Below, piece after piece: positions 5,845-47,968 of a DNA stretch of 48,864 nucleotides. Source of the stretch: Bacteroidales bacterium (GTDB lineage Bacteria > Bacteroidota > Bacteroidia > Bacteroidales > Muribaculaceae); NCBI GenBank assembly GCA_020859845.1, contig JAJBVL010000045.1, positions 1-48,864 of the forward strand, given 5' to 3'. The position numbers were made by a program, and so were the translations under genes. The notes under the pieces are model-generated. The model saw nothing but the letters and a program-made list of their open reading frames with translations. It was not told where the DNA came from and did no database searches. The first letter of the stretch is position 1. Every line of letters starts with the position of its first letter.

Positions 5845-5851
5845 AATGTTA

Positions 5852-5883: not shown

Positions 5884-5902
5884 CAGCGTACGCATACCCA
5901 TT

Positions 5903-26632: not shown

Positions 26633-26713
26633 GCCAAAAGCAGGTTTTTTACACTTGCTTAATCTGTGGGGCGAGAGTGTGCAAATAGAAAGCCTATTAT
26701 TGGCACTCCCTTT

Positions 26714-27739
26714 TTATAGATTGTGTATGTATCGACCATAGTCGGGTACTACTGGACGACTCAAGTCGAGCCCCCAGCGCTCACCAAGAGCGCTACATAA
26801 ATAATGTTCCTTCACCAGCAAATCAATGGCAGCCAAAGGTGTGGTATGCTTCGTGCGCAAGCGCAGAATCGGCACATGGTTGGGCAATCGCGTGAGAATG
26901 TCTTCTGACATCTCCACGTCATCGGGGGTCTGTAGACAGATTAAACCCGTTTGTCCGGGACGCTGAGTAAACCAGTTGAAGCGGCCATGAGCAAAGTTGC
27001 GGTAGTCGGCAAGTTGTGTGTTGCCGAGAGCGCCTTCCGAGAATTTCGATTCAATGTCCAAGGCTGGGGGAGCACTTTTTGCAGAGAAAAGGATAAAGAA
27101 GCTATCTACGCCCTCCAATTTATGGAGATATGCTTCATGTTGAGTCAATTCTTCAAGCGAAATCCTTTTCAAATGTTCTACAAAGTCATGAATATCATTG
27201 CTTTCTGTCTCTGAAAGATTCAAGTCCAATGCCTCAAGATCTTCGTAGCCATAGGCGCGATAAAGCAATACATAGAAAGCCAGCACAGTGGTGGTAGACA
27301 AGAATCCATCTTTTGCTGTAGGTAGCACATAGTCAAAAAGATTGAGCTCGCCATTCTCTCGCATCTCGTCTTGTAGGGCGCCTTTCGGACGCAGAGTTAT
27401 TGCTCCTACTTCCTGACGAGGGCAATCATGAGCCGTGTGATATCCTCTTGATATATCCTTGTTGTTGCCTCCCGCGCTCACGAGAAGCGTCCGAGCTGGG
27501 ATGGAGGAGAAGCCACTACCGCAGTAGAAAAATGGAGTGATGGCGCGCGCCATGATGCCTTTTTCTGCCGAAAGCAATTCGGCAAATGCAGCCGCGCTAT
27601 ACGACCCACCCGATGCAAGAAACAACCGGTTGGTCGTTGGATTTGAGAGCAGGTATTGGCTCAGCCTACCTACATCCTGCTTCTTTGCCCATTTCAGGGT
27701 CTCAGGGAACTGGCGTATTTTATATTCAAATAATCCCAT
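26714..27739 (-). CDS. SIS-domain (sugar isomerase-like) protein
   Basis: 341 aa, cytoplasmic. The N-terminal half has the SIS phosphosugar-binding pattern: a beta strand ending in LFLASGGSYSAAAFAELL (about 39-56) and a second at TLLVSAGGNNKDI. A second SIS-like half follows (FFILFSAKSAPPALDIESKF, then RNFAHGRFNWF), as in the two-lobed arrangement of glucosamine-phosphate synthase-type SIS proteins. The glutaminase domain and most sugar-metabolism neighbours are absent. Its gene follows a CX5R-phosphatase gene by 22 bases on the same strand. It is AT-richer than pulA and is the last gene of the 26.7-39.8 kb minus-strand island. A regulatory or nucleotide-sugar-sensing role is possible but unproven. 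Confidence 0.65.
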   Translation of the reverse strand: MGLFEYKIRQFPETLKWAKKQDVGRLSQYLLSNPTTNRLFLASGGSYSAAAFAELLSAEKGIMARAITPFFYCGSGFSSIPARTLLVSAGGNNKDISRGYHTAHDCPRQEVGAITLRPKGALQDEMRENGELNLFDYVLPTAKDGFLSTTTVLAFYVLLYRAYGYEDLEALDLNLSETESNDIHDFVEHLKRISLEELTQHEAYLHKLEGVDSFFILFSAKSAPPALDIESKFSEGALGNTQLADYRNFAHGRFNWFTQRPGQTGLICLQTPDDVEMSEDILTRLPNHVPILRLRTKHTTPLAAIDLLVKEHYLCSALGERWGLDLSRPVVPDYGRYIHNL

Positions 27740-27761
27740 ACCTATTATATTTTAGTTTCTA

Positions 27762-28358
27762 TTAATCAAACCCCGCCTGATGGCGAATGATTTTCTTTCG
27801 CTGGGTGAATATCTCTTTCGGCATAGGTTCCTGACCGTTGTGAGTGGTGATGAAGTCGTAAATGCCATTGAGGACACGCATTATTTTCTCGGTGGTGTGG
27901 CCTTGTGCTTTAGTGTATCCGCATATTAGTGGAGGATCTATTCCTTTGTCGGCTGCATGAAACATCCAGTAAGCACAAAGGGCTATGTCGGTGCGGTGAA
28001 GTCCCATAGCACAGGCTATGTAAAAACTGCCCTGGTCAATTATCCTACACAACTCTGGCAACAATCTCACCATGCTTTCCACATGGCCGCCCCTGTTGTC
28101 CACCGGATAATAAAAATATTCTATGCCATATAGCTTGCACAGCCCACTCAGACGGGAGTTAATTCCATCTTCACGCAAATCTATTATTATCTTGACTCCC
28201 GACTGAATAATGACCGGCCATGCCTTTGACTGGTGGCGCGATGACATGGTGCGCCCACGCACTCCACCATATACTGTTGCGATGTCCGGTATACCAGTAG
28301 ACATTATGCTGTCTATGTCGAGCGTCGAATTGAAGTTAGTCTTAAAGTCGTTTGACAT
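27762..28358 (-). CDS. Dual-specificity/tyrosine phosphatase-like protein (CX5R)
   Basis: 198 aa. The P-loop signature CAMGLHR gives Cys116 and Arg122 (CX5R) with a following Thr/Asp (RTD), the hallmark of PTP/DSP enzymes. Asp87 in YYPVDNRGG is in the right place for the general acid. A preceding strand, GVKIIIDLREDG, also matches the DSP fold. The N-terminal YGGVRGRTMSSRHQS is a plausible substrate-loop region. It has no signal peptide and may act on phosphoprotein, phospho-RNA or phosphoinositide-like substrates. It lies between a secreted-protein gene (20-base gap) and the SIS-protein gene in the distal unit of the island. Confidence 0.75.
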   Translation of the reverse strand: MSNDFKTNFNSTLDIDSIMSTGIPDIATVYGGVRGRTMSSRHQSKAWPVIIQSGVKIIIDLREDGINSRLSGLCKLYGIEYFYYPVDNRGGHVESMVRLLPELCRIIDQGSFYIACAMGLHRTDIALCAYWMFHAADKGIDPPLICGYTKAQGHTTEKIMRVLNGIYDFITTHNGQEPMPKEIFTQRKKIIRHQAGFD

Positions 28359-28378
28359 AGTTATCGTTAACCGTATTA

Positions 28379-29206
28379 TTAGCCTCCAATGCCTACTTCT
28401 TCTGGCTCATTCTCCCAATTGGAGTAGTCGGCAAAAGGATATTCATAGGTAAAAGGTCTTTCGCCGCTGATGCCCCTAATGTTTACCGAGAAATTATAAT
28501 TATTCTCAGCATATTCTTGTAGCACGTTTAGAGATAGAAGAGCTTTCTGTAAAGCATTCTTTATCCTGTCGTAGCTTAATTCCCGGTCAGCTATACCATC
28601 ATTGAAGACTACCTGAAATTGAAGCTCTCCTCCATCATCCACCATTCTTAGCTCTATATTCTCTACAGCCAACTTTGCATTATAGAAATCTTGCATCTTT
28701 TGAAGGCGGTCGTCAAGAGAAAGCTCCGACTTCTCAGGTATTTTCCACTCTATATGATTGGCCCACCACGGAGAAGCAGCTGGATCTTTGAGATATTCAG
28801 CAAGCACTACGGTCACTTCTCCATTAGAGAGAGTATAGAGGCGCCCATGAGAGTAGTCGCCAAAGAAATATGGTATGGGGGTGACCTCTACTGAGGAGAG
28901 ATTATAATCCCCAATCTTTACAGTGCTGAAGGGAGAACACCCTGAATAATAAGCACTAACCTCCGAAGTAAAGGGGTAAACATATTCAGGATTCATTGCC
29001 AAAGGAAAGACTACCGCCTTCAAGATTCTTTCACCGTCGGAATAATCAATATAGTCAACATCGTCGCGCGTATCCTGCAAGAAATTATCTTTCCCGGGAA
29101 AAGTCGCTGAGAAATAAGAATGCTGATAAGTCCACTGCGCAGAAGCAGGGGCTATCGAAAAAATAGCAGCGGTTAATATTATGGTTGTAAATAAAATCTG
29201 TCTCAT
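28379..29206 (-). CDS. Secreted hypothetical protein
   Basis: 275 aa. Clear signal peptide (FTTIILTAAIFSIAPASAQ, cut about residue 23), so periplasmic or exported. The mature part opens with WTYQHSYFSATFPGKDNFLQ, a pattern seen in small secreted alpha/beta proteins that start with a YFSATFPG-like strand; no named family is assigned. It has no cysteine pair or catalytic motif that I can recognise. It shares the strand, AT-rich composition and operon with the DUF1232 and phosphatase genes. Confidence 0.6.
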   Translation of the reverse strand: MRQILFTTIILTAAIFSIAPASAQWTYQHSYFSATFPGKDNFLQDTRDDVDYIDYSDGERILKAVVFPLAMNPEYVYPFTSEVSAYYSGCSPFSTVKIGDYNLSSVEVTPIPYFFGDYSHGRLYTLSNGEVTVVLAEYLKDPAASPWWANHIEWKIPEKSELSLDDRLQKMQDFYNAKLAVENIELRMVDDGGELQFQVVFNDGIADRELSYDRIKNALQKALLSLNVLQEYAENNYNFSVNIRGISGERPFTYEYPFADYSNWENEPEEVGIGG

Positions 29207-29311
29207 CTGTTCTTTTTTAATTAATCTCGTCTTTGCCTTGGATTCTTACTCGCTTAATTCGATAGAGAAAGTGTCTTCTAGCTCGTCACAAGGATACTGG
29301 TCTTAGTGTAT

Positions 29312-29680
29312 CTATTCTTCAATCAGCTCATATGGTGTATACTCAGGGAACCATCTATCCAGCAAATGGTCGGCGCGGTTCTGCATTTCGGGCGTGATGT
29401 GCCGGCACACCTTTTGGTAAGCTACAGTGATGGAGATTATCTCGTCAACCCATCCTATAATCGGCAAACGCTTGGCAGAAAGGATATCGATTGGGAAGAC
29501 AAGATATGATATTGCAGAGAGAATAAGCATCTTATCGCTCTTAGGAGTATCCTTGCTTGTCATCACATACCATAGCAGCAACACTGGTCGCGTGGCTCCT
29601 CTTCCGGCCTTGCGGCTCCACTCAGTCACCTTCGCCCACAGCGCCTCTGAATCCAATTTAATAATGCTATTCATCGTCAT
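29312..29680 (-). CDS. YkvA/DUF1232 family small membrane protein
   Basis: 122 aa. The DUF1232 core is visible in the middle: DTPKSDKMLILSAISYLVFP, then IDILSAKRLPIIGWVDEIIS. The P-IDxxP-x-x-GxxDE pattern is diagnostic. Membrane-associated helix pair of unknown biochemical function. Sixteen bases separate its start from the stop of the acidic coiled-coil gene, and a 105-base gap follows before the secreted-protein gene. Confidence 0.8.
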   Translation of the reverse strand: MTMNSIIKLDSEALWAKVTEWSRKAGRGATRPVLLLWYVMTSKDTPKSDKMLILSAISYLVFPIDILSAKRLPIIGWVDEIISITVAYQKVCRHITPEMQNRADHLLDRWFPEYTPYELIEE

Positions 29681-29696
29681 TTCCTTTCTATATTAG

Positions 29697-30170
29697 TTAT
29701 CTTGCATTGTTGAGTTTTGAGAGAGCATGGTTATAGCGGTCAGCTGCATAATTATACCGCGATTTGGCGTCATTAAGATGGCTCACAGCATTGGCATAAT
29801 CGCCATTTGCCCGATGCTCTTTGGTATCGTTGAGCGATACCTTCTGTTCCCAGTTTCTCACGTCCGACTTTCTACAGTCCATCTCGTTCTTAGCCATCTC
29901 AACATCGTGCTCAAAGCGGGCTATCTCATCTTTGGAGTATTTACCTCCAAATGACACCTGATCAGCATAGTTGTGATCTTCCGCAGAAGATGCGTCAAGG
30001 TCATCTCTCCCTCCGCCAATTATATTATCCAAAAGATTATGCATATCATCGGGTATCGACCAAAGAGTGTCGTCCATGTCATTGCCAGAAAAGGCAAAAG
30101 AATCATCTCCTCCGAGATGGCTATTGTCGAGGTCAAGATCGTGATTGCTAAGAAAATCGTCTAATATCAT
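29697..30170 (-). CDS. Acidic coiled-coil hypothetical protein
   Basis: 157 aa. Residues 1-70 are very acidic and Gly/Asp-rich (GNDMDDTLWSIPDDMHN), probably disordered. Residues 78-157 form a charged coiled coil (SKDEIARFEHDVEMAKNEMD, then DAKSRYNYAADRYNHALSKL). No family was recognised. It is the first gene of the distal unit and follows a good promoter (30214-30246). It may be an adaptor or tether; that is inference only. Confidence 0.55.
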   Translation of the reverse strand: MILDDFLSNHDLDLDNSHLGGDDSFAFSGNDMDDTLWSIPDDMHNLLDNIIGGGRDDLDASSAEDHNYADQVSFGGKYSKDEIARFEHDVEMAKNEMDCRKSDVRNWEQKVSLNDTKEHRANGDYANAVSHLNDAKSRYNYAADRYNHALSKLNNAR

Positions 30171-30213
30171 AAGTCTATTTTTAGGGTTGACTACTCGTTT
30201 TACTATAAAGAGC

Positions 30214-30246
30214 CAAATTTACTCAAAATCTATCACCTGCAGCAAG
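30214..30246 (-). promoter_or_regulatory. Promoter for the distal part of the island
   Basis: On the minus strand TAAATTTG (30221 to 30214) is preceded by a CTTGC sequence (30246-30242), with a 20-base spacer to TTGC or 21 to CTTG. It indicates that the coiled-coil, DUF1232, secreted, phosphatase and SIS genes form a second transcription unit. Confidence 0.65.
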
Positions 30247-30290
30247 AAAAATGTTCACATTTTCTATTTTTGGAAAATTCTTAAGCCAGT

Positions 30291-30450
30291 TCCCTATCTG
30301 CGGTAGCTTTCGCAGTGCAGCGGTCCTCCGCTGCTCATTAAGCGGCTGCCTCAGCCGCGATTTAATGGCATCGGATTGTGAGAGCCAGAGGGCTGGCTCA
30401 AAAAGAGCAGCGGAGGGCCGCTGCACTGCGAAAGCTACCGCAGAGAGGGA
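30291..30450. repeat. 46-bp inverted repeat with nested palindromes, between the two halves of the island
   Basis: Arms 30291-30336 and 30405-30450 pair at 44 of 46 positions and enclose 68 bases. The inner segment contains two further hairpins: GCGGCTG/CAGCCGC (30342-30358) and GAGCCA/TGGCTC (about 30382-30399). The outer arms start with CTGCGGTAGCTTTCGCAGTG, which resembles GCGGTAGCTATTGTAGTGCGG in the mosaic at 3620. It is therefore a member of the same repeat family. It could fold into a long hairpin that ends the upstream transcript. No gene lies in the 306-base gap. Confidence 0.8.
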
Positions 30451-30476
30451 TTGATTAGAGATAAACTTAGAAAAAT

Positions 30477-31142
30477 TTATTTTACTTTTATGCAATACAT
30501 GAGGGCGAGGTTCTGAGGACGTGTCTCGGTGGCTACCCTTACTGGTTGATAGGTAGAGTCAGATGGATTCAAGACATTAAGTTTGGGGAGCTTATGGCTA
30601 TGCCCTCCAGAATTTATCGTAGGTTTTGTCTTAAATAGATCTTTAGTAATCTTTTCTTTACGTCTTGAGCTTAACGCCCAGCTTAAAGGAGATGTTGGAA
30701 GTACAGCTTTAAAGACTCCCTCTCTTAAAGTGCGCTCAGTAGGAGATATGATTTTCTCCAATTCGAAGGATTCGCTTGTGGATATAGAATCTGCTCCACG
30801 ACCAGTCCTCTCTAAAATTATATCATGGGCATGTTCTCCATTTTTCTCAGTTTCGCCTTCTACTTGCAGATTATGACTATGCCCTTGTAGGGCATCCATT
30901 TGTAGAGAACCCAACTCTCGATCAGGGTCTCGGTCGCCCTCATCATCCCAGCCGCGAACAAATCGGCCTCTCAAGTCAGGCAGACAGAAAGTTTTGGGTG
31001 TCTCTCCATAGACACCTCCTATCACCCCATACAGCTCGCTGTATGACGATTTCAGCAATTCTCTCCCATCGCAAGGCATGAAACCTTCTGGCGTAGCTTT
31101 GTATGGGAAAATTAATATACATCCAATAGGTAAACAGTCCAT
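30477..31142 (-). CDS. Phage-tail-collar domain protein 1
   Basis: 221 aa. The N-terminal 85 residues are a tail-collar/microcystin-dependent-protein-type domain: PIGCILIFPYKATPEGFMPC, DGRELLKSSYSELYGVIGGV, then KTFCLPDLRGRFVRGWD. A GHSHNL and HAHD pair in the middle and a C-terminal SGGHSHKL resemble the metal-binding HxH repeats of fibre and collar proteins. The end is YQPVRVATETRPQNLALMYC, the usual C-terminus of the family. No signal peptide. It is paralogous to the proteins at 31145-31765 and 37852-38508. In phages the domain sits at tail-fibre tips. It is unclear whether these bacterial versions are exported. Confidence 0.85.
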   Translation of the reverse strand: MDCLPIGCILIFPYKATPEGFMPCDGRELLKSSYSELYGVIGGVYGETPKTFCLPDLRGRFVRGWDDEGDRDPDRELGSLQMDALQGHSHNLQVEGETEKNGEHAHDIILERTGRGADSISTSESFELEKIISPTERTLREGVFKAVLPTSPLSWALSSRRKEKITKDLFKTKPTINSGGHSHKLPKLNVLNPSDSTYQPVRVATETRPQNLALMYCIKVK

Positions 31143-31144
31143 AT

Positions 31145-31765
31145 CTATTTCACTTTTATACAGTAAAGCATCGCGATATTTTTCGGGCGAGTCTCATTGG
31201 ACACTCTTATTTCATCAAAGGTGGAACTCTTTGGATTCCGCACTTCTATATCTGGCAAAAATATATCATGCTTATGGGCTCCATCTTCACTTGTATACTT
31301 TAAAGCTTCTTTAGGTTCACATTTATCCCAGTTGTAAATAAAGGTCTTGTAGGTATGCCCATATCCATCTACAGTACTATTTACTGTCCATATACGATGA
31401 TTATGTCCAGGGATTGCTTCTGTATGGAGAAACTTCTCATAATTGATTAAATGACCGTGTCCCTGAATGGTATCTTCTTGCAGTGCTCCTAATTCTCTTT
31501 CAGGATCTACATTCCCTTCCTTATCCCATCCACGGACAAACCGTCCTTGCAAATCTGGCAGGCAGAAAGTAGTCTCCGAGCCTCCGTAGGTATCCTTTAT
31601 AACTGAATAGAGCGCCGGAAAAGAGGCTTTAAGCAGTTCTCGCCCGTCACAGGGAAGAAAATCCTCTGGATATTCTTCCGCTGGGTATATTACAATTGTG
31701 CCCACGGGCAACAGTTCTCGCTTGAGTCTGTCAAGAAGCTCTTGGTAATCTTTTTTGTCAATCAT
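31145..31765 (-). CDS. Phage-tail-collar domain protein 2
   Basis: 206 aa. An N-terminal helix (DKKDYQELLDRLKRELLPVG) leads into the collar domain: IVIYPAEEYPEDFLPCDGRE, LLKASFPALYSVIKDTYGGS and TTFCLPDLQGRFVRGWD. HxH-type pairs (QGHGHLI, PGHNHRI, AHKHDIF) and the C-terminal FDEIRVSNETRPKNIAMLYC complete the family pattern. The start overlaps the Hsp70 gene stop by 8 bases and the stop is 2 bases before collar protein 1, so all three genes are translationally linked. The short N-terminal helix is shared with collar protein 3 (YQSLLAQLRADLVPVG). Confidence 0.85.
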   Translation of the reverse strand: MIDKKDYQELLDRLKRELLPVGTIVIYPAEEYPEDFLPCDGRELLKASFPALYSVIKDTYGGSETTFCLPDLQGRFVRGWDKEGNVDPERELGALQEDTIQGHGHLINYEKFLHTEAIPGHNHRIWTVNSTVDGYGHTYKTFIYNWDKCEPKEALKYTSEDGAHKHDIFLPDIEVRNPKSSTFDEIRVSNETRPKNIAMLYCIKVK

Positions 31766-33377
31766 CTTCGTTGGGTATAGTTATGTTTTTGAATATACTG
31801 AGAGGGTCATATGAGTAAATCTTATCGAGGTGGTTCCAATCACCGCAGAGCACGCTCTTTAGCCTGGTACACATATCAGATGGTTTGTCAACCTCCTTTG
31901 CCAATTGCAAGGCCACCTTGTCATCTTTCACCATCCCATGCCCGAGAAAAGCCATCAATGCTTTTAGCTCCTTAGCTCCCTGACATTGGCTTTTCTCCAA
32001 TAAAGCAAGGGCTTGGCGCTTTGCCTTTTTACCTTTAGTTATCGCTCCCGAGTAATAAAGCGTTGCCAAATAGAAGAGCGCGTCGTCGGTCTGCGAATTT
32101 GTAAAATATAGAGCAGCTGTCTTGTAATCCCCGCTTTTAGCATACTTCACTCCAAGTCTCTCAAGCCTTTTAGGCGCAATACTGTAATGATGATAATAAG
32201 CCGCTCCCTGAGCCACCACTTCTATGTCAGTCATTTCTATAGAGCCTTGCATTCCGATTTGCTTTTTCTCTTCCCACTTAGCCCTTACAAGAGGGATACG
32301 CGACGAGCCACCCACAAGAAATACCTTGGAGATAGTTTTGAGGGAAATGTTGGGGTCCACTTCTGAAGCCTCTTCCAGCAAGTCGCAGGAGCAACTGATA
32401 GTCTCATCAATTGTAGACTCTATCATCTTGTCAAACTCTTCTCGGCTAATGATATAATCGCCAACACCATTGGTATATTTTTTCTCTTTAGATAAAGCCA
32501 CTTTAGCTTTTACTGGTTCTACCCTCAGATGATTCTCGATAGAGAGGCGCTCTTTTAGCGACAGTCCTCCACCCGCTATACGCTTTGCATATCCACCTGC
32601 TACTGCGCTCCGCTTCACATAGTCTCTTCTCACCATCGCGTCAAGATAGATACCACCCCACTTCTGCATGTGGTTGGAGCCTACCGATTGGTTGACAATG
32701 AATATCTGCTCATCTTTCACTTTTGCTACCGTAGTGTCAAAGGTGCCTCCCCCGAAATCATAAATCAAGAATGAGGATTCATTATTTTTGCTCATATTGC
32801 GCAGCGATTTGCCCACCAGAAAGAAGGCTGCGGCTTCGGGTTCAGGGAGGATAGTGACATCCATAAGGCCTACCTCTTTCGCCGCCTCGAGCATCCTTGT
32901 GTATCTCTTCCCACCTTTTACGGTAGAAGCAGGGACTGTCAAAACCACTTTAAACGTCCTAAACATTTTGTCCCAAAACGATTTGATGTCGCTTTGTTGA
33001 AAGGCACAATGATACACGTGGTCAAGGATTGCCGAAACTAAATATTTATAAGTGATACCTCTTTTTTCATCGGCATACTCTTGTTCACCATCCAATGCTG
33101 GCTTGAAGTTTTCATATACAGTCCCTTCTGGAGAAAGTCTATGGTTAATAGCCTTCTCCCCTACTTGAGGTTTAGGTCCGTCTATCTTCGTTACTAACAA
33201 TCCATTATCGTTAGGCACATAAACTGCCGTAGGCATAGCATACTGATTTGAGCCCAGGCCAAAGTCTGCCAATGTTTCATTAAGTTTTACCATCCACGAC
33301 TCTCCACTCGAGGGGTCAAATACAGCGGCCTTTGTAAAGGTGGTTCCGAAATCTATTCCTAGATAGAGCATCTTCAT
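31758..33377 (-). CDS. Hsp70-like ATPase with C-terminal TPR/Sel1-like repeats replacing the substrate-binding domain
   Basis: 539 aa. Complete actin-like nucleotide-binding domain (about 1-398): phosphate-1 loop LGIDFGTTFTKAA (6-18), VVLTVPAS, LPEPEAAAF (177-185), phosphate-2 loop YDFGGGTFDTT (206-216) and adenosine loop VFLVGGSSRIP (362-372). After about residue 405 there is no canonical beta-sandwich or helical lid. The tail instead carries TPR/Sel1-like helices (LERLGVKYAKSGDYKTAALY, then TDDALFYLATLYYSGAITKG, QALALLEKSQCQGAKELKAL). This suggests a chaperone-like ATPase specialised for fixed partners rather than general folding. A GrpE-like protein lies in the same operon, while no DnaJ is seen. 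It sits between a dynamin-like GTPase gene and collar protein 2. Confidence 0.88.
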   Translation of the reverse strand: MKMLYLGIDFGTTFTKAAVFDPSSGESWMVKLNETLADFGLGSNQYAMPTAVYVPNDNGLLVTKIDGPKPQVGEKAINHRLSPEGTVYENFKPALDGEQEYADEKRGITYKYLVSAILDHVYHCAFQQSDIKSFWDKMFRTFKVVLTVPASTVKGGKRYTRMLEAAKEVGLMDVTILPEPEAAAFFLVGKSLRNMSKNNESSFLIYDFGGGTFDTTVAKVKDEQIFIVNQSVGSNHMQKWGGIYLDAMVRRDYVKRSAVAGGYAKRIAGGGLSLKERLSIENHLRVEPVKAKVALSKEKKYTNGVGDYIISREEFDKMIESTIDETISCSCDLLEEASEVDPNISLKTISKVFLVGGSSRIPLVRAKWEEKKQIGMQGSIEMTDIEVVAQGAAYYHHYSIAPKRLERLGVKYAKSGDYKTAALYFTNSQTDDALFYLATLYYSGAITKGKKAKRQALALLEKSQCQGAKELKALMAFLGHGMVKDDKVALQLAKEVDKPSDMCTRLKSVLCGDWNHLDKIYSYDPLSIFKNITIPNEDD

Positions 33378-33384
33378 TCTTTAA

Positions 33385-34956
33385 TCAATTGTGAATATCC
33401 GTTATCTCTGGCTGAGGGTGACATTTGAGCGCGTCTAATATTATCTTTCCAGCCTCTAAGGCAGGTATATCATAAATCATAGTGAAGAATTCGCACTGAC
33501 GAGTCCAATACTCTACCAATTGCTTGCGTAGCGGTTCATCATAGGTATTGCTCATGATGAGGTCAAGCGCCTTATTGGCCATTGTCCATTCCTCCTCTGA
33601 GAAGTAATCGCGCTGATCATAGAAATCTCTTAATAAGGTGAGATATGCAAATGTGTCATAGAGGTTTTTCTCCATATCGCTGCAGAGCCACAAGACTTGT
33701 TGCAACTTGTCCACCACTTTTTTATCTAAGGCGTTCCCGGCCTCCCTCTCTATGCAGTTATGAAGGCTGGGCAACAACCTAATGGCTTTATAAAATAAGC
33801 CCAATTTCCCAAAATGACCACTGAAGATATAGGATTCCAAGGGCGATATTCCAGAATACTCTACCAGTCGGCATTGTAATTTAGCAAAGGTGAACTCGGG
33901 ATTACGTTGCAGTAGCCACACAGCATACTGCATCACCTCCAGCTCCATCTTTGCCAATAAGGCATTCTTCTCAACCATCGTGGTAAATATCTTACTCCAC
34001 ACCTCTTTGTCCGTCTCCTCGTTCATATACCTTTTCTTAGTATACCGTTGAGCAAACTTCTCAGCTATGGGACTAAGAGCAATCTTTTTCAAGTTGGCGA
34101 AATCATCTTCTGTCATACGATAGGCCGACTGTGCATACAAGGCAGCAATCGGAAAAGCTTTGAAGAAACATGCCCTAAACTTAGGGTAAGCTGTGCGATT
34201 ATGGTCAATGATATCGTAGGCTTTCACTCTATAGTCCACGCTCCACTCGCCATGGGCATAGTTATCACAATGAGTGAACGCCGTAAGTGTGTTTAGTCCG
34301 CTGAATTTGCTTCCTTTAAGCGATGAGCGATTACCTCCGCGTTGGGATGAGTTTGCGGATTGGAAACGCGCCACAGCCTCAAGGTCTTCAGCTTGATATT
34401 CTTTTTGCGCTACAAAAAGGATAATATCCGGCTTACGATTTTGGTCAGCAAAAAGATTGTAAGTGTTCTGCGAGTCGTGCTTTTTTGTAGAGTATAATCC
34501 GGGGGTATCTATTATGTCAATCTGCTTTAGATAATCGTATGGCTTAAATACTTCTACCCAGTCTACCTCATCGCGAAAACCTGTATTATCCTCCAATGTA
34601 CCGTCAACGAAACTCGACAGCAGCCCAGCTTCCATCATCTTTTCCTCACCATCCTTAAAATGAATCACTATACACTCTTCTCCTGTCGGAGAAAAGGAGA
34701 TGTGGCGCAATACGTTGACATTATAAGTGAGCGTCTGAGGGCCAGTAGGAACAATGTATTGCTTCACCAGAGCATTCAGAAGTGTGGATTTGCCAGCGCT
34801 GGTCTCCCCCACTATAGCAAGTCGCAATGGCTCATTGAGCTGCCGAAGGACGCTGTTGACCTCATCCTCTATCGTTGGGTTAAAGCCATAGGAGACTATG
34901 CCTAATATTTCATTAAGCATAGTCTCCATACGGCTTTTAATATCACTTTTATACAT
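33385..34956 (-). CDS. Dynamin-like GTPase A
   Basis: 523 aa. G1 motif AIVGETSAGKSTLLNAL (about 47-63, P-loop GETSAGKS), switch I threonine in GPQTLTYNV, G3 IDIIDTPGLYS and a G4-like LTAFTHCDN (divergent from N/TKxD). The rest is long helical segments, as in bacterial dynamins, without a clear hydrophobic paddle or membrane anchor. Dynamin-family proteins remodel membranes and often work as unequal pairs; here the partner is the larger GTPase encoded just upstream, overlapping by 8 bases (34949-34956). The Hsp70 gene follows 7 bases downstream. Cytoplasmic, probably membrane-associated through GTPase B. Confidence 0.85.
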   Translation of the reverse strand: MYKSDIKSRMETMLNEILGIVSYGFNPTIEDEVNSVLRQLNEPLRLAIVGETSAGKSTLLNALVKQYIVPTGPQTLTYNVNVLRHISFSPTGEECIVIHFKDGEEKMMEAGLLSSFVDGTLEDNTGFRDEVDWVEVFKPYDYLKQIDIIDTPGLYSTKKHDSQNTYNLFADQNRKPDIILFVAQKEYQAEDLEAVARFQSANSSQRGGNRSSLKGSKFSGLNTLTAFTHCDNYAHGEWSVDYRVKAYDIIDHNRTAYPKFRACFFKAFPIAALYAQSAYRMTEDDFANLKKIALSPIAEKFAQRYTKKRYMNEETDKEVWSKIFTTMVEKNALLAKMELEVMQYAVWLLQRNPEFTFAKLQCRLVEYSGISPLESYIFSGHFGKLGLFYKAIRLLPSLHNCIEREAGNALDKKVVDKLQQVLWLCSDMEKNLYDTFAYLTLLRDFYDQRDYFSEEEWTMANKALDLIMSNTYDEPLRKQLVEYWTRQCEFFTMIYDIPALEAGKIILDALKCHPQPEITDIHN

Positions 34957-37147
34957 TAGTGGTAGGCATTAGGACAGCCCATATTTGATCGATGCTCTTA
35001 GAGAGCGTGGATATCTTATCCCAATTGCTGCGCAAGTTGGTGGCCATCTCGTTAATCTTCTCATACTGCGACAAGCAGAACTTCTTGTCATTACGTAGCT
35101 CGTTGAGGAATTGACGCTCTATCTCGCTGGAATTGGAGATATTCGATTCCTTGATTGACGACTTCGTGGCTCGTATAAAGGAAGAAATATTCTCTCTACA
35201 CTTCGCGGCGATTTGTTGCTGCTTTTGTTTCTTGGTTTGGAAGCGGGTAGCCAAAAATCCTGTGACAGCCCCTATGGCAGCCCCAATAGCCGTCCCTACT
35301 CCAGGAGCTATTGTTGTGCCCAGAAGAGCCCCGGCTTTCGCCAACACCGCTGCTCCAGCCGTAGTGCCTAAAGCCACTGATACGAGGCTTCCCCCCAAGA
35401 TTCCCATACCCGCGCTGATAAACACATTTCTGGCCTGTACCGATGCGGGGATGTCTCCGCAGCTGTCCGGAATCACCACATTCTCTACATCTATATTGGG
35501 AGAATAGATTTTGTCCTTCACCTTATCCAGTTGGGTCTCTATCCTTAGCCAGTCGTAAATCTCTACAAAGCCTTGACTCACCTTATTGCAAAGGCTTTCT
35601 TTCATGGCCACCATATCGGCTTGAATCGTGTTGGCCAACAAGTCTTTATCGTTGAGATATAGATCTTGTTCTACAAGGCTTTCCATATGGCTTACCAGTT
35701 TCTGATGCTCCCTATCTATAAAGTCATACACTTTGTTCTCCAGAAGTGCTTGACGTTCGTGGAGTCGGGTTGTCCAATCGATGCGATTATCTTCTATCGT
35801 TTGTAGACGGTTGAGCAAACGATTCAATTCGGCCCTTCTGTTCTCTGCCGCAACAGGATCTTTAGCGGCCTGCATAAGCAAGTCAATATCCTTCTTCAAG
35901 AGCAATACTATACCACTCAAAAGGGTGGTATAACGTTTCACCATAAACTCGCTGACCGTGGCATTTATCCCTTCTATATAAGCTGCCACGTCAAGAAATC
36001 CACTATCTTCAAGGTCGTCCTTGTCGCCATTTTTAAGATAGTCTTGATACATAGTGGAGGATATTTGGAAAAACCGCAGCTCTTTGTCCTTCAGCTGCTT
36101 ACGAATTTCCTGCTTATTCTCGTTCATTATCACATCAGGATGGCCTTTGTCACACCACGTAAGAATGTGTGCTATATTTTCACATTTCGAACACTTGATA
36201 AGATTGACCAAGTTGGCTATCTCAGATGCCGTCAGTTGCTTACCAGTCCATCCTAAGAAAAGTATGATATCGGCCTCTGTAGCTATGTTGAAGGTGGCAA
36301 GCGCATGGCGTGGGTCAATAGCTCCCATTCCTGGAGTGTCGATAAACACCAAGCCCTTTTGCAGAATTGGATCGTCAATCCTTATCTCGATAAAATCAAC
36401 TTGCGCTGCATTCTTAGGATTACTTCTTTCAGAGGAAAAATCCTTGATTTGGTCAACGTTAATCTCCTGCGACTCTCTTTGTTGGTCGTTAGCAGGGTCC
36501 TTCCTAAAGTGTACCACGCATGTCCTCTCCCTGCCATAAGCGATTTTGGTGGGCACGTTGGTACACGCTTCATCTGCCGTGGTCAGGAGGTCAATTCCAA
36601 GGATAGCGTTTATAAATGAGGACTTCCCCGTGGAAACTTCTCCAGCCACAAGAACATTCAATTCCTGTCGGTCAAATCGCTTTTTCAGTTCCAACAGTTG
36701 GTGGGCATATCCCATATAGGGAGAATCCTGGCGGCTCTTGTCAAGATTCTTACAGGCCAAGTGTGCTATCTCTATCACGTCAGTGTATAGCGTGCTTAAC
36801 TCTTCTTTTGTCATAAGGGTAGTTTTATGGTTGTTATCATTTTTCAGTTCAGGGTTGGATTTATCCCAAACCTCTGGATGAGAAGCCAGAAGGCCATCAA
36901 GTTCTTGCAGGATTTGGTCAGCAGTTCCTATTGGCAAACGATCTCGGGAGAAATCCCCCATTACGGTTTTTTGAAGATAAGGAAGGTTCATCAGATAGAG
37001 AGCATCTTCCCAATCATCGCCTTCAGTCACTCCCAAAAGATGATTTCCCTCTTTTGGGCCATCAAGAAATGCCCCAATCATCTCTTCCGATACAGGGAGA
37101 TCATTAAGGTCTTTGAAGCGTGAAAGCAGTTCGTCAAGATTTCTCAT
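34949..37147 (-). CDS. Dynamin-like GTPase B with glycine-zipper membrane segment
   Basis: 732 aa. N-terminal helical region (1-160), then G1 VLVAGEVSTGKSSFINAIL (P-loop 169-177), switch I EACTNVPTKI, G3 VFIDTPGMGAID and G4-like HILTWCDKGHPD. Long helical stalk about 400-570. Near 575-640 there is a hydrophobic glycine-zipper stretch (AGMGILGGSLVSVALGTTAG, then APGVGTAIGAAIGAVTGF), the kind of insert that bacterial dynamins use to enter membranes. A basic FQTKKQKQQQ follows and a C-terminal helical bundle returns to the stalk. It overlaps the sigma-like gene by 4 bases (ATGA) and GTPase A by 8 bases. A heteromeric A/B membrane-remodelling complex is inferred. Confidence 0.87.
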   Translation of the reverse strand: MRNLDELLSRFKDLNDLPVSEEMIGAFLDGPKEGNHLLGVTEGDDWEDALYLMNLPYLQKTVMGDFSRDRLPIGTADQILQELDGLLASHPEVWDKSNPELKNDNNHKTTLMTKEELSTLYTDVIEIAHLACKNLDKSRQDSPYMGYAHQLLELKKRFDRQELNVLVAGEVSTGKSSFINAILGIDLLTTADEACTNVPTKIAYGRERTCVVHFRKDPANDQQRESQEINVDQIKDFSSERSNPKNAAQVDFIEIRIDDPILQKGLVFIDTPGMGAIDPRHALATFNIATEADIILFLGWTGKQLTASEIANLVNLIKCSKCENIAHILTWCDKGHPDVIMNENKQEIRKQLKDKELRFFQISSTMYQDYLKNGDKDDLEDSGFLDVAAYIEGINATVSEFMVKRYTTLLSGIVLLLKKDIDLLMQAAKDPVAAENRRAELNRLLNRLQTIEDNRIDWTTRLHERQALLENKVYDFIDREHQKLVSHMESLVEQDLYLNDKDLLANTIQADMVAMKESLCNKVSQGFVEIYDWLRIETQLDKVKDKIYSPNIDVENVVIPDSCGDIPASVQARNVFISAGMGILGGSLVSVALGTTAGAAVLAKAGALLGTTIAPGVGTAIGAAIGAVTGFLATRFQTKKQKQQQIAAKCRENISSFIRATKSSIKESNISNSSEIERQFLNELRNDKKFCLSQYEKINEMATNLRSNWDKISTLSKSIDQIWAVLMPTTNV

Positions 37148-37827
37148 AATAGTCCCTCCTTTCTCATCGCCACATAAAGTTGGGCTTTAGCAAGTCGATG
37201 TTTGTTGTAATAATTCTTCATTGTCATGGAGAGCGCTTCCGCCGTCTCTTCATTGGTCTTGTCGAGAAGGTAGCGGAGCTCTATTATACGACGATAGCGC
37301 TGATTGGGCATTTGGCTCACCACTTTACGAGCTTCCTCCATGCTGAGACGCATAATCTCCTTCTCTGCGGTGCCACCAATGCGTTCAAGGCTTTCAGTGT
37401 CTTTATAGCCTTCGTCAAAGTCTATACGCCGTGCGAAAAGTTTATGGCAATAGTGCTCAGCAACGACCTTTAGCCACATTGTCAGGGAGCAACGATGACC
37501 AAACTCAGCGAGTTTTGACTTTCCTGTGGTGCTATTTGGAAGAATGATATAAAGGTAAATCTCTTGCATAAACTCCAAGACGCTTTCGCAGTCAGTATAA
37601 TACTGGTTGTAGATATTGTCAAAGAGGGGGAAGCACTGGCAGAAGAAAAATTCTTTCGTTACAGCAGGATCTCTCTCCAACAGTGATGCCACAATCTGTC
37701 GCTCAGTCATCTCTACACCATTTACCCTCCTTATCTCGTTCCCCTTGTCGCATACCTCCACGAGAGCCTCCCGCCGAGAGGACCCTGATTGCGTTATGCC
37801 TATATTTTTTAGTTCTTTGGGAGCCAT
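37144..37827 (-). CDS. Sigma-70/ECF-like factor or sigma-derived regulator
   Basis: 227 aa from the ATG at 37827; a TTG at 37851 would add eight residues and directly abut the previous stop. A region-2-like segment (EFFFCQCFPLFDNIYNQYYT, then LEFMQEIYLYIILP) resembles the FxxLYxxYxxxVxxFxQExFLxI pattern of ECF sigma factors. Region 4 is clearer: MPNQRYRRIIELRYLLDKTN followed by EETAEALSMTMKNYYNKHRLA, a helix-turn-helix with the EEIAxxLxxxxxxVxxxxxRA pattern. Its position in mid-operon, between a collar gene and the GTPase pair, is unusual. It may direct transcription of this island, whose own upstream region lacks a TAnnTTTG box. Confidence 0.72.
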   Translation of the reverse strand: MAPKELKNIGITQSGSSRREALVEVCDKGNEIRRVNGVEMTERQIVASLLERDPAVTKEFFFCQCFPLFDNIYNQYYTDCESVLEFMQEIYLYIILPNSTTGKSKLAEFGHRCSLTMWLKVVAEHYCHKLFARRIDFDEGYKDTESLERIGGTAEKEIMRLSMEEARKVVSQMPNQRYRRIIELRYLLDKTNEETAEALSMTMKNYYNKHRLAKAQLYVAMRKEGLL

Positions 37828-37851
37828 AGAGCGTTGGTGTTTTAGAGCCAA

Positions 37852-38508
37852 TCACTTCACCTTCATGCAGAACTGCAACGCCACATTCTTAGGCCTCGTC
37901 TCGCATGCCACTTTTACTCTCCCGTGCAGGGAATCGTCAGGCTGGCCCACGGGCTTAATAGTACCTAAACTTAGGATATGGGTATGGGTGCCAGAACTGA
38001 GAGTTCCATTTTCGAATATAAATTCTCCAAGGCGAGAATCTCCGAAAGAATTATAATAAGTCTCAGAGGCAGGAAGCTTTTGATTAACGGAATAAGTGCC
38101 TCTGGAGGAGCCATATCGAGAACTCATATCTCTCCAGCGCAACGCATGATTATGTCCGCCATCGTTTTTAAGCGACAGTCCTTCTGGATTAAACTGATGG
38201 GAATGTCCTTGAAAGGCATCTTCTTGCTGAGAAGCAAATTCACGCTCTGGATCCACATCGCCCGATGCATCATATCCTCGAATAAACTGGCCTTGCAGAT
38301 CGGGCAGACAAAACGTCTTGTCGGTACCACCAAAAACTGTGCCAATCGTAGCGTAGAGTTCTGGATAGGATGCTTTGCTCAATTCCCTGCCATCACACGG
38401 CAAATACCCCTCAGGCACCTTAAGCGAGGGGAAAGCAAAGATTGCTCCTACAGGCACTAAATCGGCTCTTAGCTGCGCCAATAGAGATTGATATTCTTGT
38501 GAAGTCAT
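37852..38508 (-). CDS. Phage-tail-collar domain protein 3
   Basis: 218 aa. Short N-terminal helix (YQSLLAQLRADLVPVG), then the collar domain: AIFAFPSLKVPEGYLPCDGR, ELSKASYPELYATIGTVFGG and KTFCLPDLQGQFIRGYD. HxH pairs occur at QGHSHQF, GGHNHAL and GTHTHIL, and the family C-terminus is LHGRVKVACETRPKNVALQFC. It is the closest relative in layout to collar protein 2, although separated from it by the sigma, two dynamin and Hsp70 genes. This implies duplication within the island and possibly different roles or alternative subunits. Confidence 0.85.
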   Translation of the reverse strand: MTSQEYQSLLAQLRADLVPVGAIFAFPSLKVPEGYLPCDGRELSKASYPELYATIGTVFGGTDKTFCLPDLQGQFIRGYDASGDVDPEREFASQQEDAFQGHSHQFNPEGLSLKNDGGHNHALRWRDMSSRYGSSRGTYSVNQKLPASETYYNSFGDSRLGEFIFENGTLSSGTHTHILSLGTIKPVGQPDDSLHGRVKVACETRPKNVALQFCMKVK

Positions 38509-38523
38509 AAGTTGCGATAGATT

Positions 38524-39171
38524 TTAGTCTGTCTGTAAGGTATAAACCACTACTTCTGCCGGGCGTAAGCATTGGTCCCCCAGCCTATACCCCGGAATCA
38601 CTACTTCAGCCACTTTGCCCACGAGCGATTCATCTGATGTAGGTCGTGTGTCAATTATCTTGTGTATAGAGCCATCGCACTCCACTCCTGCATCCTCTAT
38701 TGGAGATATTTGTTGTGCCGAAAGAAATTCCATAACGCTCCTTCTAAGCATCCCCACAAATGCTACCCGTGAAAGCTCAGGGGTTGCCTCGGCGAGGTCC
38801 AAAGCGCTTGGCAACTCGAGAGCACCCACCAGCCAGTTTTCCAATTTCTTGTTTGCGCCTTGCAACTCGTGCCGAAGGTAACAACATTCTTTTTCCAGCG
38901 ACTTCAAATGCTCGCTTTGCTCAGCAATCTTGCCTAAACTTTCTCCAAGTTGATTTGATATACGGCGTATCTCCTTGTGCAATCTAGAGTTTTCTTCTTC
39001 TACATCTTGGAGTCGTAATTGAGCGGATTTAAATTGGCGCAAGTAGTCGTCGCGCTCGTTCTCAACGTCCCTTAAGCGTCCTACGATCTGCTTAAGTTCC
39101 CTTTCAAGAGCCTTCATCTTCTCCGGTGGGATGAGGTCTAATATATCGGCTATAATATTTTTAAAGCTCAT
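38524..39171 (-). CDS. GrpE-like coiled-coil protein (candidate nucleotide exchange factor)
   Basis: 215 aa from ATG 39171 (MSFKNIIADILDLIPPEKMK). An in-frame ATG at 39201 is also possible, and longer extensions to 39303 would run into the preceding gene. Residues about 15-115 form one continuous coiled coil (ERELKQIVGRLRDVENERDD onward), longer than usual for GrpE. The C-terminal 50 residues match the GrpE head: GKVAEVVIPGYRLGDQCLRP followed by AEVVVYTL, comparable to the conserved VxxVxxxGYxLxxRvlRPAxVxV end. With the Hsp70-like ATPase in the same operon, a dedicated exchange-factor role is likely. The housekeeping GrpE would be elsewhere. Confidence 0.75.
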   Translation of the reverse strand: MSFKNIIADILDLIPPEKMKALERELKQIVGRLRDVENERDDYLRQFKSAQLRLQDVEEENSRLHKEIRRISNQLGESLGKIAEQSEHLKSLEKECCYLRHELQGANKKLENWLVGALELPSALDLAEATPELSRVAFVGMLRRSVMEFLSAQQISPIEDAGVECDGSIHKIIDTRPTSDESLVGKVAEVVIPGYRLGDQCLRPAEVVVYTLQTD

Positions 39172-39205
39172 AAATACTGCTTTAGTGTTAATTCGATTCA
39201 TTGTT

Positions 39206-39763
39206 TCAAGAGAATGTAAGCATAAAGTTGTCCGAGTCATTCCAGGCATCCAGAAACTGATCCATGTCGTACGGCTTGCACAAATCGCCAGTCCCTGGAT
39301 CAATAAGATTCACGATGCCCGAAGAGAAATCGTCGTCAAACTCTATGCCCGCTACCAGTAGGGCATGGTCAGACCGAGGTCCCCAAAACATATCTTCTAC
39401 AGTCTCTTCAAAACCAGAATTCCACAATTCTCCTGAATCAACACCGACCAAAACAGGATGGCCTTTGGCCAGTTCAAGCATCAAATGATAAATATTCGCG
39501 CCATGGGTCTGTGTCACGTCTATACCATAAAGCTCCATCAACTTTCCTACATTAGCCTCCAAGGTGCCTTGCGAAGGCGTATACCAGCCATGCTCTATAG
39601 CATCGGCCACAAGTTGGCTTTCGTTCACGTCGATGCCTAAGCCCCTAAGCAGAAGCTCCTGAGTCTTTATGGCGCAATCATCGGGTAATCCTTGATGCAC
39701 TGCTTCAGAATATTCGTCATAGCCCGGTAGGCCAAACTGTTTTTGTGGTAGAGATTCTTTCAT
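39206..39763 (-). CDS. C39/papain-like cysteine peptidase domain protein
   Basis: 185 aa, no signal peptide. The pattern fits the C39-like peptidase fold: catalytic Cys30 in LPDDCAIKTQELLLR, His133 in RSDHALLVAGIEF, and Asp155 (or Asn152) in VNLIDPGTGD. Between them lies the GHPVLVGVDSGELWN strand typical of bacteriocin-processing-like C39 folds. It is the first gene of the island's main operon, preceded by two dyad-symmetric sites. The substrate is unknown: it could process a leader on a partner such as the collar proteins or act as a toxin domain. No double-glycine leader was seen on neighbouring proteins. A 34-base gap leads to the GrpE-like gene. Confidence 0.7.
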   Translation of the reverse strand: MKESLPQKQFGLPGYDEYSEAVHQGLPDDCAIKTQELLLRGLGIDVNESQLVADAIEHGWYTPSQGTLEANVGKLMELYGIDVTQTHGANIYHLMLELAKGHPVLVGVDSGELWNSGFEETVEDMFWGPRSDHALLVAGIEFDDDFSSGIVNLIDPGTGDLCKPYDMDQFLDAWNDSDNFMLTFS

Positions 39764-39782
39764 ATAGAGCTATTGCGGTTGA

Positions 39783-39842
39783 TTAATACAACGGACGTAC
39801 GTTGTATTAATATAGAGCCGTGATAAAGGCTAAAACTATCAC
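39783..39842. promoter_or_regulatory. Two dyad-symmetric sites upstream of the island operon
   Basis: The first is TTAATACAACG (39783-39793) and CGTTGTATTAA (39800-39810), perfect 11-base arms around GACGTA. The second is GTGATA (39820-39825) and TATCAC (39837-39842), 11 bases apart. Both lie in the 127-base gap just upstream of the peptidase ATG (39763), where an operator would be expected. No TAnnTTTG box is evident, so expression may need a repressor-controlled or alternative-sigma promoter. The first palindrome has no T run and seems a better operator than terminator. Confidence 0.55.
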
Positions 39843-39890
39843 CAAGGATCAAAAAATTTTAGGTATGGTTATCACAGGGTACAAAAAATC

Positions 39891-40349
39891 TTATCGCTCG
39901 TCAAGCCTGAAGACGAGGCGCTGCACGCCATCCTGCCAGCGACTGCTGCTGATGCGGAAGTGGCCTATCTCGCTGGTGCGGGCCACATGGGTGCCTACGC
40001 AGAGACATTCGTCATACGAGCCCACATGCACTATCCTTACCGTGGAGGAGGCGTCGTCGGGCAGTCGGTCGAGGTCGAAGCGCGTAGCCACGTCGGCCTT
40101 CTGAGCCATCTCGGTCCACACCTCTACGTCTTCTGCTATAATCGCGTTGATGTCTTCCTCCAGTCGTCGCAGGTCAAGGTCGGTCAACGGTTGCGCCAGA
40201 TGATAGTCGAGCTTCGACTTCTTGCGCTCCACGTGCGACGAAAACGCGCGGCCACAGCCATAGCGCTGCGCCATCAGCCCATTCAGCAGATGCTCTGCCG
40301 TATGCATCGGAGGATACTCCTCCTTATTGTGTCGATTCATTTCTTCCAT
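39891..40349 (-). CDS. AlaX-like tRNA-editing domain protein
   Basis: 152 aa free-standing editing domain related to the C-terminal domain of AlaRS/ThrRS. It hydrolyses mischarged aminoacyl-tRNA, probably Ser- or Gly-tRNA-Ala. The zinc site is visible as HTAEHLLNGLM (His16, His20) and the later CVGTHVARTSEIG (Cys and His). SKLDYHL, where AlaX proteins have a KxxLDxT/H motif, is the usual second strand. The ATG at 40349 is only 4 bases from the -7 box, so ATG 40340 (MNRHNKEEYPPM) may be the real start. It is divergent from lutA. Confidence 0.85.
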   Translation of the reverse strand: MEEMNRHNKEEYPPMHTAEHLLNGLMAQRYGCGRAFSSHVERKKSKLDYHLAQPLTDLDLRRLEEDINAIIAEDVEVWTEMAQKADVATRFDLDRLPDDASSTVRIVHVGSYDECLCVGTHVARTSEIGHFRISSSRWQDGVQRLVFRLDER

Positions 40350-40353
40350 TTTG

Positions 40354-40361
40354 CAAATTTA
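40354..40361 (-). promoter_or_regulatory. -7 box for the AlaX-like gene
   Basis: TAAATTTG on the minus strand, immediately upstream of the gene; no clear -33 partner. A short or absent leader is implied. Confidence 0.45.
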
Positions 40362-40555
40362 GCATTTTTCCCAAAACCATCCTCATCTCTCAGGCTTTAT
40401 TCCTAATGAGAATCTTCTATGAGCTAAATAAAAAGCATATAAAGATTGGATAACGTTTCAGAAAGATTTAGTAACTTCGTAGAGCAATAACCATCTTTCA
40501 GTATATGGAGAGCTTCAGGGCCTCCTTACCAGAAACAGATATATCGTACAGCATT

Positions 40556-45380: not shown

Positions 45381-45402
45381 TGCTCACTAATCACCTAATT
45401 AC

Positions 45403-47958: not shown

Positions 47959-47968
47959 GTTCGTAAAA

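Follow-up and report, generated by a model that had tools for sequence, protein, structure and literature searches.

Paired dynamins, a C39 peptidase and an Hsp70 ATPase recur as one gene set across phyla and stand in a Muribaculaceae island that may encode a mobile, self-regulated membrane machine

What could a cysteine peptidase, a chaperone with its exchange factor, two dynamin-like GTPases, a sigma factor and three proteins resembling phage tail tips do together in one bacterial gene island? Bacterial dynamins are common, and their partners and triggers are mostly not established. We addressed this question in a stretch of 48,864 nucleotides (nt), hereafter the window, which is the entire contig JAJBVL010000045.1 of a 2.9-Mb Muribaculaceae genome (Bacteroidales bacterium, assembly GCA_020859845.1). 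An original prediction made from the letters alone had described positions 26714-39763 as an island of 14 consecutive genes, all on the minus strand, that together form a new system, and the open reading frames (ORFs) lie exactly where it placed them. Here we report that the core genes of this island are well supported as one system, a case that rests on counts in 80 related loci, strand bias and co-variation of sequence distances. As to function, we tentatively propose a dynamin machine under sigma control and driven by a chaperone, which would serve in membrane surveillance or immunity.

The first nine genes (39763-30477, the peptidase gene c39 to the third collar gene) are spaced by -8 to +37 nt (37, 15, 0, -4, -8, 7, -8 and 2 nt in order), and 306 nt separate the ninth gene from the tenth; the original prediction had described most of the nine as overlapping or abutting. 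These nine genes look like one operon, with the following features:

39782-39811, no strand: palindrome with 15-nt arms, 93% complementary, directly upstream of c39; candidate operator or promoter element
39206-39763, minus strand: C39-type cysteine peptidase of 185 amino acids (aa); Pfam Peptidase_C39_2 at 25.9 bits (cut-off 24); used as bait for related loci
38524-39168, minus strand: GrpE-like exchange factor, 214 aa; Pfam GrpE at 51.5 bits (cut-off 25.8); aligns with the solved GrpE 3a6m
37852-38508, minus strand: collar protein A, T4 gp12 tip-like; Pfam Collar at 70.4 bits; residues 17-218 match the T4 gp12 tip 1ocy
37144-37851, minus strand: sigma factor resembling the extracytoplasmic function (ECF) type; Sigma70_r4_2 at 28.2 bits (cut-off 25.7); relatives in 22/80 loci
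36788-37147, minus strand: anti-sigma-like N-terminal module of dynamin A, extent approximate; 4-nt overlap with the sigma gene; 38.4 bits against a module profile trained with it
34949-37147, minus strand: dynamin A (dynA), 732 aa; Dynamin_N at 86.8 bits; hydrophobic segment at residues 575-601
33385-34956, minus strand: dynamin B (dynB), 523 aa; Dynamin_N at 64.9 bits; no hydrophobic segment found when looked for
31758-33377, minus strand: Hsp70 ATPase domain with a Sel1-like helical tail; Pfam HSP70 at 66 bits; no recognisable substrate-binding domain
31145-31765, minus strand: collar protein B; Collar at 65 bits; 8-nt overlap with hsp70
30477-31142, minus strand: collar protein C; Collar at 61.5 bits

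To find out how often these genes travel together, we aligned the window C39 with five relatives, searched genome contigs with the resulting profile and analyzed the best 80 of 113 confirmed relatives (loci are numbered with L, genomes with G). Partner genes were scored in the 80 loci with profiles built from window-seeded hits, on contigs of which some are short. At least one dynamin gene was present in 64 of the 80 loci, at least two in 56 and at least three in 14, and Hsp70 was present in 46, sigma in 22, GrpE in 10, DUF1232 in 3 and a collar in 1. Hsp70 occurred in 8 of the 16 loci that had no dynamin. In 50 loci the contig extended 5 kb or more to each side of C39, and 44 of these held a dynamin. 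Nearly all partners lay on the same strand as C39 (128/131 dynamin genes, 50/54 Hsp70 genes), and in 49/80 loci a dynamin started no more than 1.2 kb downstream of it. The original prediction had staked its case on co-occurrence beyond chance in other genomes, and the dynamin and Hsp70 counts bear it out.

Sequence distances within the set also co-vary. In 34 loci holding C39, dynA and dynB, with the window included, near copies (L071-L073) excluded and no correction for species descent, distances correlated between C39 and dynA (r 0.685), C39 and dynB (0.666) and dynA and dynB (0.908); with Hsp70 added (n=30), r was 0.505 for C39-Hsp70 and 0.736 for dynB-Hsp70. In permutation tests of all five correlations, 0/2000 permutations reached the observed r. 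By record titles, the C39 loci span Bacteroidota, Planctomycetota, Akkermansia, Cyanobacteria, Clostridia, Actinobacteria and Proteobacteria, with the reservation that titles of metagenome-assembled genomes (MAGs) are not fully reliable: one contig (L100/G002:C11) is titled Clostridium sp., its genome falls in the genus of our host, and the title is probably wrong. Closer to home, 148 relatives of the host searched at E 1e-10 included 10 genomes with C39, 11 with dynamins and 6 with both, always in one locus; dynamins thus occurred in 6/10 C39 genomes versus 5/138 others (Fisher p 6.5e-6, or 3.5e-8 when counting only the six C39 matches below 1e-80). The four genomes with weaker C39 matches (G038, G073, G025 and G115; E 1e-35 to 1e-14) had no nearby dynamin at E 1e-6, and the dynamin that G073 does have lies on another contig than its C39. 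These weaker matches represent either another C39 branch or a C39 that is able to stand without dynamins.

The active site of C39 cysteine peptidases consists of Gln, Cys, His and Asp. In an alignment of 62 sequences, Cys30, His133 and Asp155 never vary and Gln24 is kept in at least 90%; across 85 aligned matches the counts are Q 79, C 82, H 82 and D 85. The catalytic residues are therefore intact, and a comparison of C39 with solved structures by sequence gave no convincing homologue (best E 0.21). An uncharacterised 177-aa protein is found in 29/80 loci and directly follows C39 in the nine inspected gene maps that hold it. In Bacteroidales and Rhodococcus we also observed Asp/Gly-rich repeats that by eye resemble calcium-binding repeats, located on the C39 protein itself or encoded immediately ahead of it (L119:8856-9491, L110:2-553, L027:11166-12353, L026:4636-5874).

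By the topology of a FastTree phylogeny of C39, the window groups with L036, L041, L043 and L046, each of which bears a sigma gene. The closest full relative among the best 80 of 113 is L043, from a MAG titled Bacteroidales bacterium RGIG3192, which carries sigma, C39, dynA, dynB, GrpE, an Hsp70 with a Sel1 tail, one collar, a WG-repeat protein and a DUF1232-like protein in a different order. Because L043 carries both, a collar and a DUF1232 protein can belong to the set. The full gene set is not required, since Hsp70, GrpE and sigma each go undetected in many of the 80 loci.

The sigma factor had been predicted to serve expression of the island, and it does belong to the system; an anti-sigma-like module attached to it had been missed. 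Residues 69-228 of the window sigma match TIGR02937 at 34 bits, which is below its cut-off, and by Pfam region 4 exceeds the cut-off and region 2 gives no match. In the window and in 20 of the 22 loci that bear sigma, the gene directly following it opens with one common module; in the other two (L044, L055) no downstream ORF was picked up. The module gene overlaps sigma by 4 to 14 nt, except in L033 where the two are 25 nt apart. In 15 loci the module is joined to C39 and in 5 it stands alone; in the window it is part of dynA. No such module accompanies a second, weak sigma-like gene of L058. Searched against 1321 ORFs at E 0.1, the module profile matched only its training genes and two C39 proteins (L081, L083). 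We call the module anti-sigma-like because, among the module proteins scanned, only that of L033 exceeds the Pfam cut-off for zf-HC2 (26.2 versus 22.2); L040 (15.6) and L058 (12.6) fall below it, and the scan gave no match in L043, L036, L042 or L109. This arrangement resembles ECF sigma factors paired with zf-HC2 anti-sigma factors in the overlap of sigma and anti-sigma-like genes and in the L033 match, but differs in that most aligned relatives lack the Cys residues and the module forms part of a protease or a dynamin. In the L033 protein itself (L033:3060-5546), which lies directly before dynA and dynB, zf-HC2 shares one chain with a Ser/Thr kinase and a weak match to C39.

The two dynamin genes are adjacent with an 8-nt overlap, and both exceed the Dynamin_N cut-off. 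The solved sequences nearest to dynA are IniA (6j72) and BDLP (2j68). A hydrophobic stretch is present in 72/92 members of the dynA family versus 11/38 of the dynB family, and dynA is probably membrane-embedded. Of the GTPase motifs, G1 is found in 91/92 and G3 in 87/92 dynA proteins, and G3 in 38/38 dynB proteins. Bacterial dynamin genes are mostly paired, according to one study (PMC6104087). Our set shares its unequal, side-by-side GTPases with Campylobacter jejuni DLP1/2, Streptomyces DynA/B, mycobacterial IniA and Bacillus subtilis DynA. Unlike our set, none of these is accompanied by a dedicated Hsp70/GrpE, a C39 protease or a sigma/anti-sigma pair in the available portions of the papers that describe them. 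B. subtilis DynA delays phage lysis and is reported to confer phage resistance (PMC8844932).

The original prediction named the chaperone Hsp70-TPR. The Hsp70 ATPase domain stands, and the tail resembles Sel1 repeats instead, by way of L043 (Sel1, 32.3 bits); the window's own tail has no Pfam match. The best HSP70 stretch of the window protein covers profile positions 135-370 of 599 and protein residues 131-394, leaving the first 130 residues unmatched. In ten relatives the stretch ends at 349-377 of 599, with a second stretch in L054 whose position was not placed. As judged from these profile matches, the protein keeps the nucleotide-binding domain and is without a recognisable substrate-binding domain. 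Tails of the ten relatives carry Sel1 in two cases, FHA, TPR and a beta-helix in one each, and nothing recognised in five. A structure model of the window Hsp70 suggests a helical C-terminus at low confidence (predicted local distance difference test 47.5), too poor for a fold search. One fusion of unusual architecture joins the Hsp70 ATPase domain to a beta-helix (Beta_helix/NosD; L071:5326-8532). Hsp70 of the window type was found only in the window itself, both in 148 relatives searched at E 1e-30 and in 393 genomes from the order searched at E 1e-60, and for this reason the full version of the locus is rare. For grpE, a start at 39168 (214 aa) is better than the TTG at 39303. The protein aligns through the C-terminal part of 3a6m and has the coiled coil and C-terminal beta domain of a GrpE. 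In 5/10 GrpE-bearing loci (L042, L074, L075, L092, L106), GrpE lies between dynA and dynB.

Three collar proteins had been cast as effectors, baits or substrates. We reject a general effector role, as a collar is present in 1/80 loci; that one, L043, has its collar in the same place as the window, directly after hsp70 and overlapping it. Identity to collar A is 45% for collar B and 47% for collar C, and three HxH motifs are invariant in four aligned collars. HxH motifs have a metal-binding role. The host genome has only three Collar domains, all inside the island. Collar A matches nearly the whole of 1ocy from the T4 gp12 short tail fibre, but the shaft is missing and no other tail family is found among the island proteins; no hydrophobic segments were found in the collars. 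We regard them as local accessories that may bind glycan.

The set is also found on plasmids. Anabaena sp. 90 plasmid pANA01 (L118) is annotated with Hsp70, C39, an uncharacterised protein and two dynamins in this order. A Rhodococcus qingshengii plasmid is annotated with C39, sigma, a dynamin, a 160-aa protein, a GTPase and two Hsp70; the GTPase is dynB by our profiles, and the 160-aa protein between the dynamins scores 35 bits with our own GrpE profile and 21.9 with Pfam, below the cut-off of 25.8. Plasmid records with a C39 relative number 27, of which 26 are from Rhodococcus or Prescottella. Beside the Hsp70, C39 and dynamin pair of pANA01 (L118:1-9619) we observed a CHAT-domain protein and two DO-GTPase-like genes, one over the Pfam cut-off (56.8 bits) and the second below (21.1). 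Viral contigs scanned with patterns for Hsp70 and C39 yielded no confirmed relative, and phage records contained no match to C39. Within the window, G+C is 0.450 inside the island versus 0.570 in the left flank and 0.556 in the right, and the island is probably from an outside source. The original prediction had proposed finding its boundaries in sister genomes; five congeners share the pullulanase gene and demonstrate neither an empty insertion site nor a boundary. Together, co-occurrence, strand bias, order, co-variation and plasmid carriage uphold the claim that the core genes form one system, and it is quite possible that the island carries a mobile, self-regulated membrane machine.

Beyond the nine-gene run, the island and its surroundings hold further features. 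Possible accessories are:

29697-30170, minus strand: acidic/coiled-coil protein, 157 aa, possible accessory; weak similarity (E 0.0011) to the protein that ends the L028 locus
29312-29680, minus strand: DUF1232 protein with a hydrophobic segment, accessory; Pfam DUF1232 at 32.8 bits; in 3/80 related loci
28379-29206, minus strand: 275-aa protein with an N-terminal hydrophobic segment, probably secreted judging by hydrophobicity; possible accessory

Apart from the L028 match, the 157-aa protein has no relative at E 1e-3. A small protein precedes DUF1232 in L043, and its N-terminus looks similar to that of the 275-aa protein. Between the third collar gene and the gene for the 157-aa protein lies a 60-bp inverted repeat (30291-30450), and a search with the 191 bp at 30210-30400 found 68 matches in the host genome, marking a dispersed palindromic repeat family. 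The 20-nt core of the palindrome upstream of c39 has no other copy across the host genome. A scan of 26000-41000 with Rfam gave no family at gathering score. Directly upstream of the island, a minus-strand gene with a tRNA_SAD domain (39891-40349) has a flank-like G+C of 0.58. The last two genes, at 26714-28358, encode a SIS-like protein and a weak DSP-type phosphatase, the latter below the Pfam cut-offs; the label SIS is a reading by eye that no tool confirmed. They had been counted as members, and phmmer found them in no related locus. Relatives of the SIS-like protein occur in 17 plasmid records, some of them within proteins that carry a HAD or sucrose-phosphate hydrolase annotation, and two plasmid relatives that we inspected have other gene contexts. 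We rejected both genes as core and consider them probably outside the system. A second AT-rich pocket at 5134-8049 (G+C about 0.44-0.49) holds a GmrSD_N protein beside an AAA_15/AAA_21 protein, possibly a defence pair.

We compared the island with known systems. In DO-GTPase/GAP1 conflict systems, as the main text of Kaur et al. 2020 (PMC7159879) describes them, GTPases occur with HSP70 and GrpE and in some cases with kinases or PP2C; some of the HSP70s lack the peptide-binding domain, and membrane association and mobile neighbourhoods are further likenesses. HSP70 with GrpE is given there as a 14% theme, and the window has this combination. Unlike in our loci, the words dynamin and C39 occur 0 times in that main text, and the systems are reported there as nearly absent from cyanobacteria, where C39-dynamin loci are present. 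None of 20 window proteins matched the DO-GTPase families PF19993/PF19975, no island protein matched the DO-GTPases of L028 by phmmer even at E 10, and none matched the L028 GAP-like protein, a probe that has no Pfam match itself and may be unfair. A single-sequence search of the 80 loci found the L028-type pair of DO-GTPases with a GAP-like protein in 9, a Ser/Thr kinase in 10 and PP2C in 7; Pfam identifies the L028 GTPase as a DO-GTPase (33.2 bits). The relatives in 9/80 loci and on pANA01 link our loci to these GTPase-centred conflict systems.

LeoABC/Eleos resembles the island in partial profile matches of dynA (LeoA 64.6 bits, LeoBC 55.9 bits), but NCBIfam LeoA scores 28.8 on dynB versus a cut-off of 325 and is not among the matches of dynA; with no LeoA-family dynamin above the curated cut-off, we rejected membership. 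Toward the contig end, at 43308-48018 and about 3.5 kb from the island, lies a bacteriophage exclusion (BREX)-like locus with BrxL (842.8 bits with the PADLOC model; MIT_C-type C-terminus) and PglZ. We rejected the island as part of it: brxL and pglZ lie outside, beyond CCG/LUD genes, and no BREX family is found inside. None of the known kinds tested fits, because a DO-GTPase is missing, LeoA is below cut-off and the available text of the paired-dynamin papers names no such partners. The original prediction knew of no described system with this combination, and no description of it was found among the open-access papers listed, judged by titles and abstract openings with subscription papers outside the scope. 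Within that scope we rate the combination as new, or as a variant if all dynamin operons or nucleoside triphosphate (NTP)-switch systems are counted as one kind.

How might such a set work? We place a response to membrane damage first, with an immune role close behind. The core would consist of the C39 protease, dynA in the membrane, its soluble partner dynB, the Hsp70 ATPase and, in some loci, a dedicated GrpE, with the Hsp70 substrate-binding domain missing or exchanged for a swappable tail. In the resting cell, the anti-sigma-like module, located on dynA here and on C39 or free elsewhere, would hold the sigma factor. Injury to the membrane or envelope would change the state of a dynamin or the protease, which would free sigma and induce the operon. 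At the site of membrane damage, dynA and dynB would assemble with GTP and then tether the affected area, seal it or cut it off, and the Hsp70-GrpE pair, with the tail as target reader, may load or recycle the dynamins or the protease. Cleavage by C39 of a partner protein, possibly the sigma-holding module, would be the irreversible step. This scheme is inferred as regards its signal, its sequence of steps, what C39 cleaves and whether phage is the natural trigger. The original prediction had the chaperone/exchange-factor pair and the two GTPases acting together at a membrane: the pair does go with the GTPases, a membrane segment is predicted in one of the two, and their joint action is presumed.

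Several observations weigh against this reading. The rows of the C39 alignment came from loci first found via dynA, and the six strong genomes of the 148-genome table themselves supplied rows, so that the table is not independent; the 80-locus scan leans toward dynamin loci too, though less so, its partner profiles were seeded in the same loci, 33/113 C39 relatives lie outside the 80 counted, and L071-L073 are near copies. On contigs of which some are short, Hsp70 was not found in 34 of the 80 loci, GrpE in 70 and sigma in 58. The module gives no Pfam match in the window, zf-HC2 included, and a LytTR-type protein in 11/80 loci makes sigma control at most one of several modes. The G1 motif was matched in only 26/38 dynB proteins. 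Finally, a PADLOC scan of 92 of 349 eligible neighbours matched 40 families, each in no more than 3/92 and many of them kinase models, without a random-locus background; the predicted phage sensing is unproven.

The same scattered matches count against a second reading, possible but harder to credit, in which the island is an NTP-switch immune system for biological conflict: a threshold would be set by Hsp70, GrpE and the GTPases, and the killing or containing would fall to C39 or to a variable gene linked to the set (collars, CHAT, Hsp70 tails). Such a role would fit the DO-GTPase-like and GAP-like genes, kinases and PP2C counted above, the DO-GTPases and CHAT protein beside Hsp70, C39 and two dynamins on pANA01, the HSP70-GrpE theme in the main text of Kaur et al., the nearby BREX genes, plasmid carriage and the phage resistance ascribed to B. 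subtilis DynA. Yet the window lacks a DO-GTPase and a match to the GAP-like probe, one and the same protease recurs where variable effectors would be expected, and neither viral contigs nor phage records yielded a relative. Improbable in our judgement is an export or vesicle machine whose dynamins pinch the membrane while C39 matures cargo, with the collars as glycan-binding cargo. C39 domains do mature exported peptides in known transporters (PMC6363468), LeoA has been linked to vesicle secretion (PMC4159319), and the collars resemble receptor-binding tips, but no exporter family is found among the island proteins, the collars have no hydrophobic segment and occur in 1/80 loci, and the window C39 is a lone 185-aa domain. 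Least of all do we expect a chance gathering of unrelated genes in a variable island. The AT-richness, an Hsp70 found in 1/148 relatives and five congeners without a conserved neighbourhood would suit it, but recurrence, order, strand and co-variation across phyla speak against it. From the 80-locus counts, co-variation and strand bias we reject chance clustering for the core; it may hold for the genes at 26714-28358.

The membrane machine that we favour would put Hsp70 to an unfamiliar purpose, in that loss or exchange of the substrate-binding domain points to a different use of its ATPase. Among animal proteins, Mx and GBP are dynamin-like GTPases that act in immunity. With more reserve, we suggest that loci of this kind may be a widespread prokaryotic innate membrane immunity, in which a chaperone drives a dynamin pair, a membrane subunit or protease holds sigma, and the state of GTPase or protease is read out as transcription; the swappable Hsp70 tail would be the sensor, C39 the committing protease, and the output of the window would include repurposed phage tail tips. 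With this gene set, bacterial dynamins gain named, testable partners, namely Hsp70, GrpE in some loci, a protease and a sigma/anti-sigma-like switch, and the idea that they may serve as chaperone-controlled membrane immunity would become testable.

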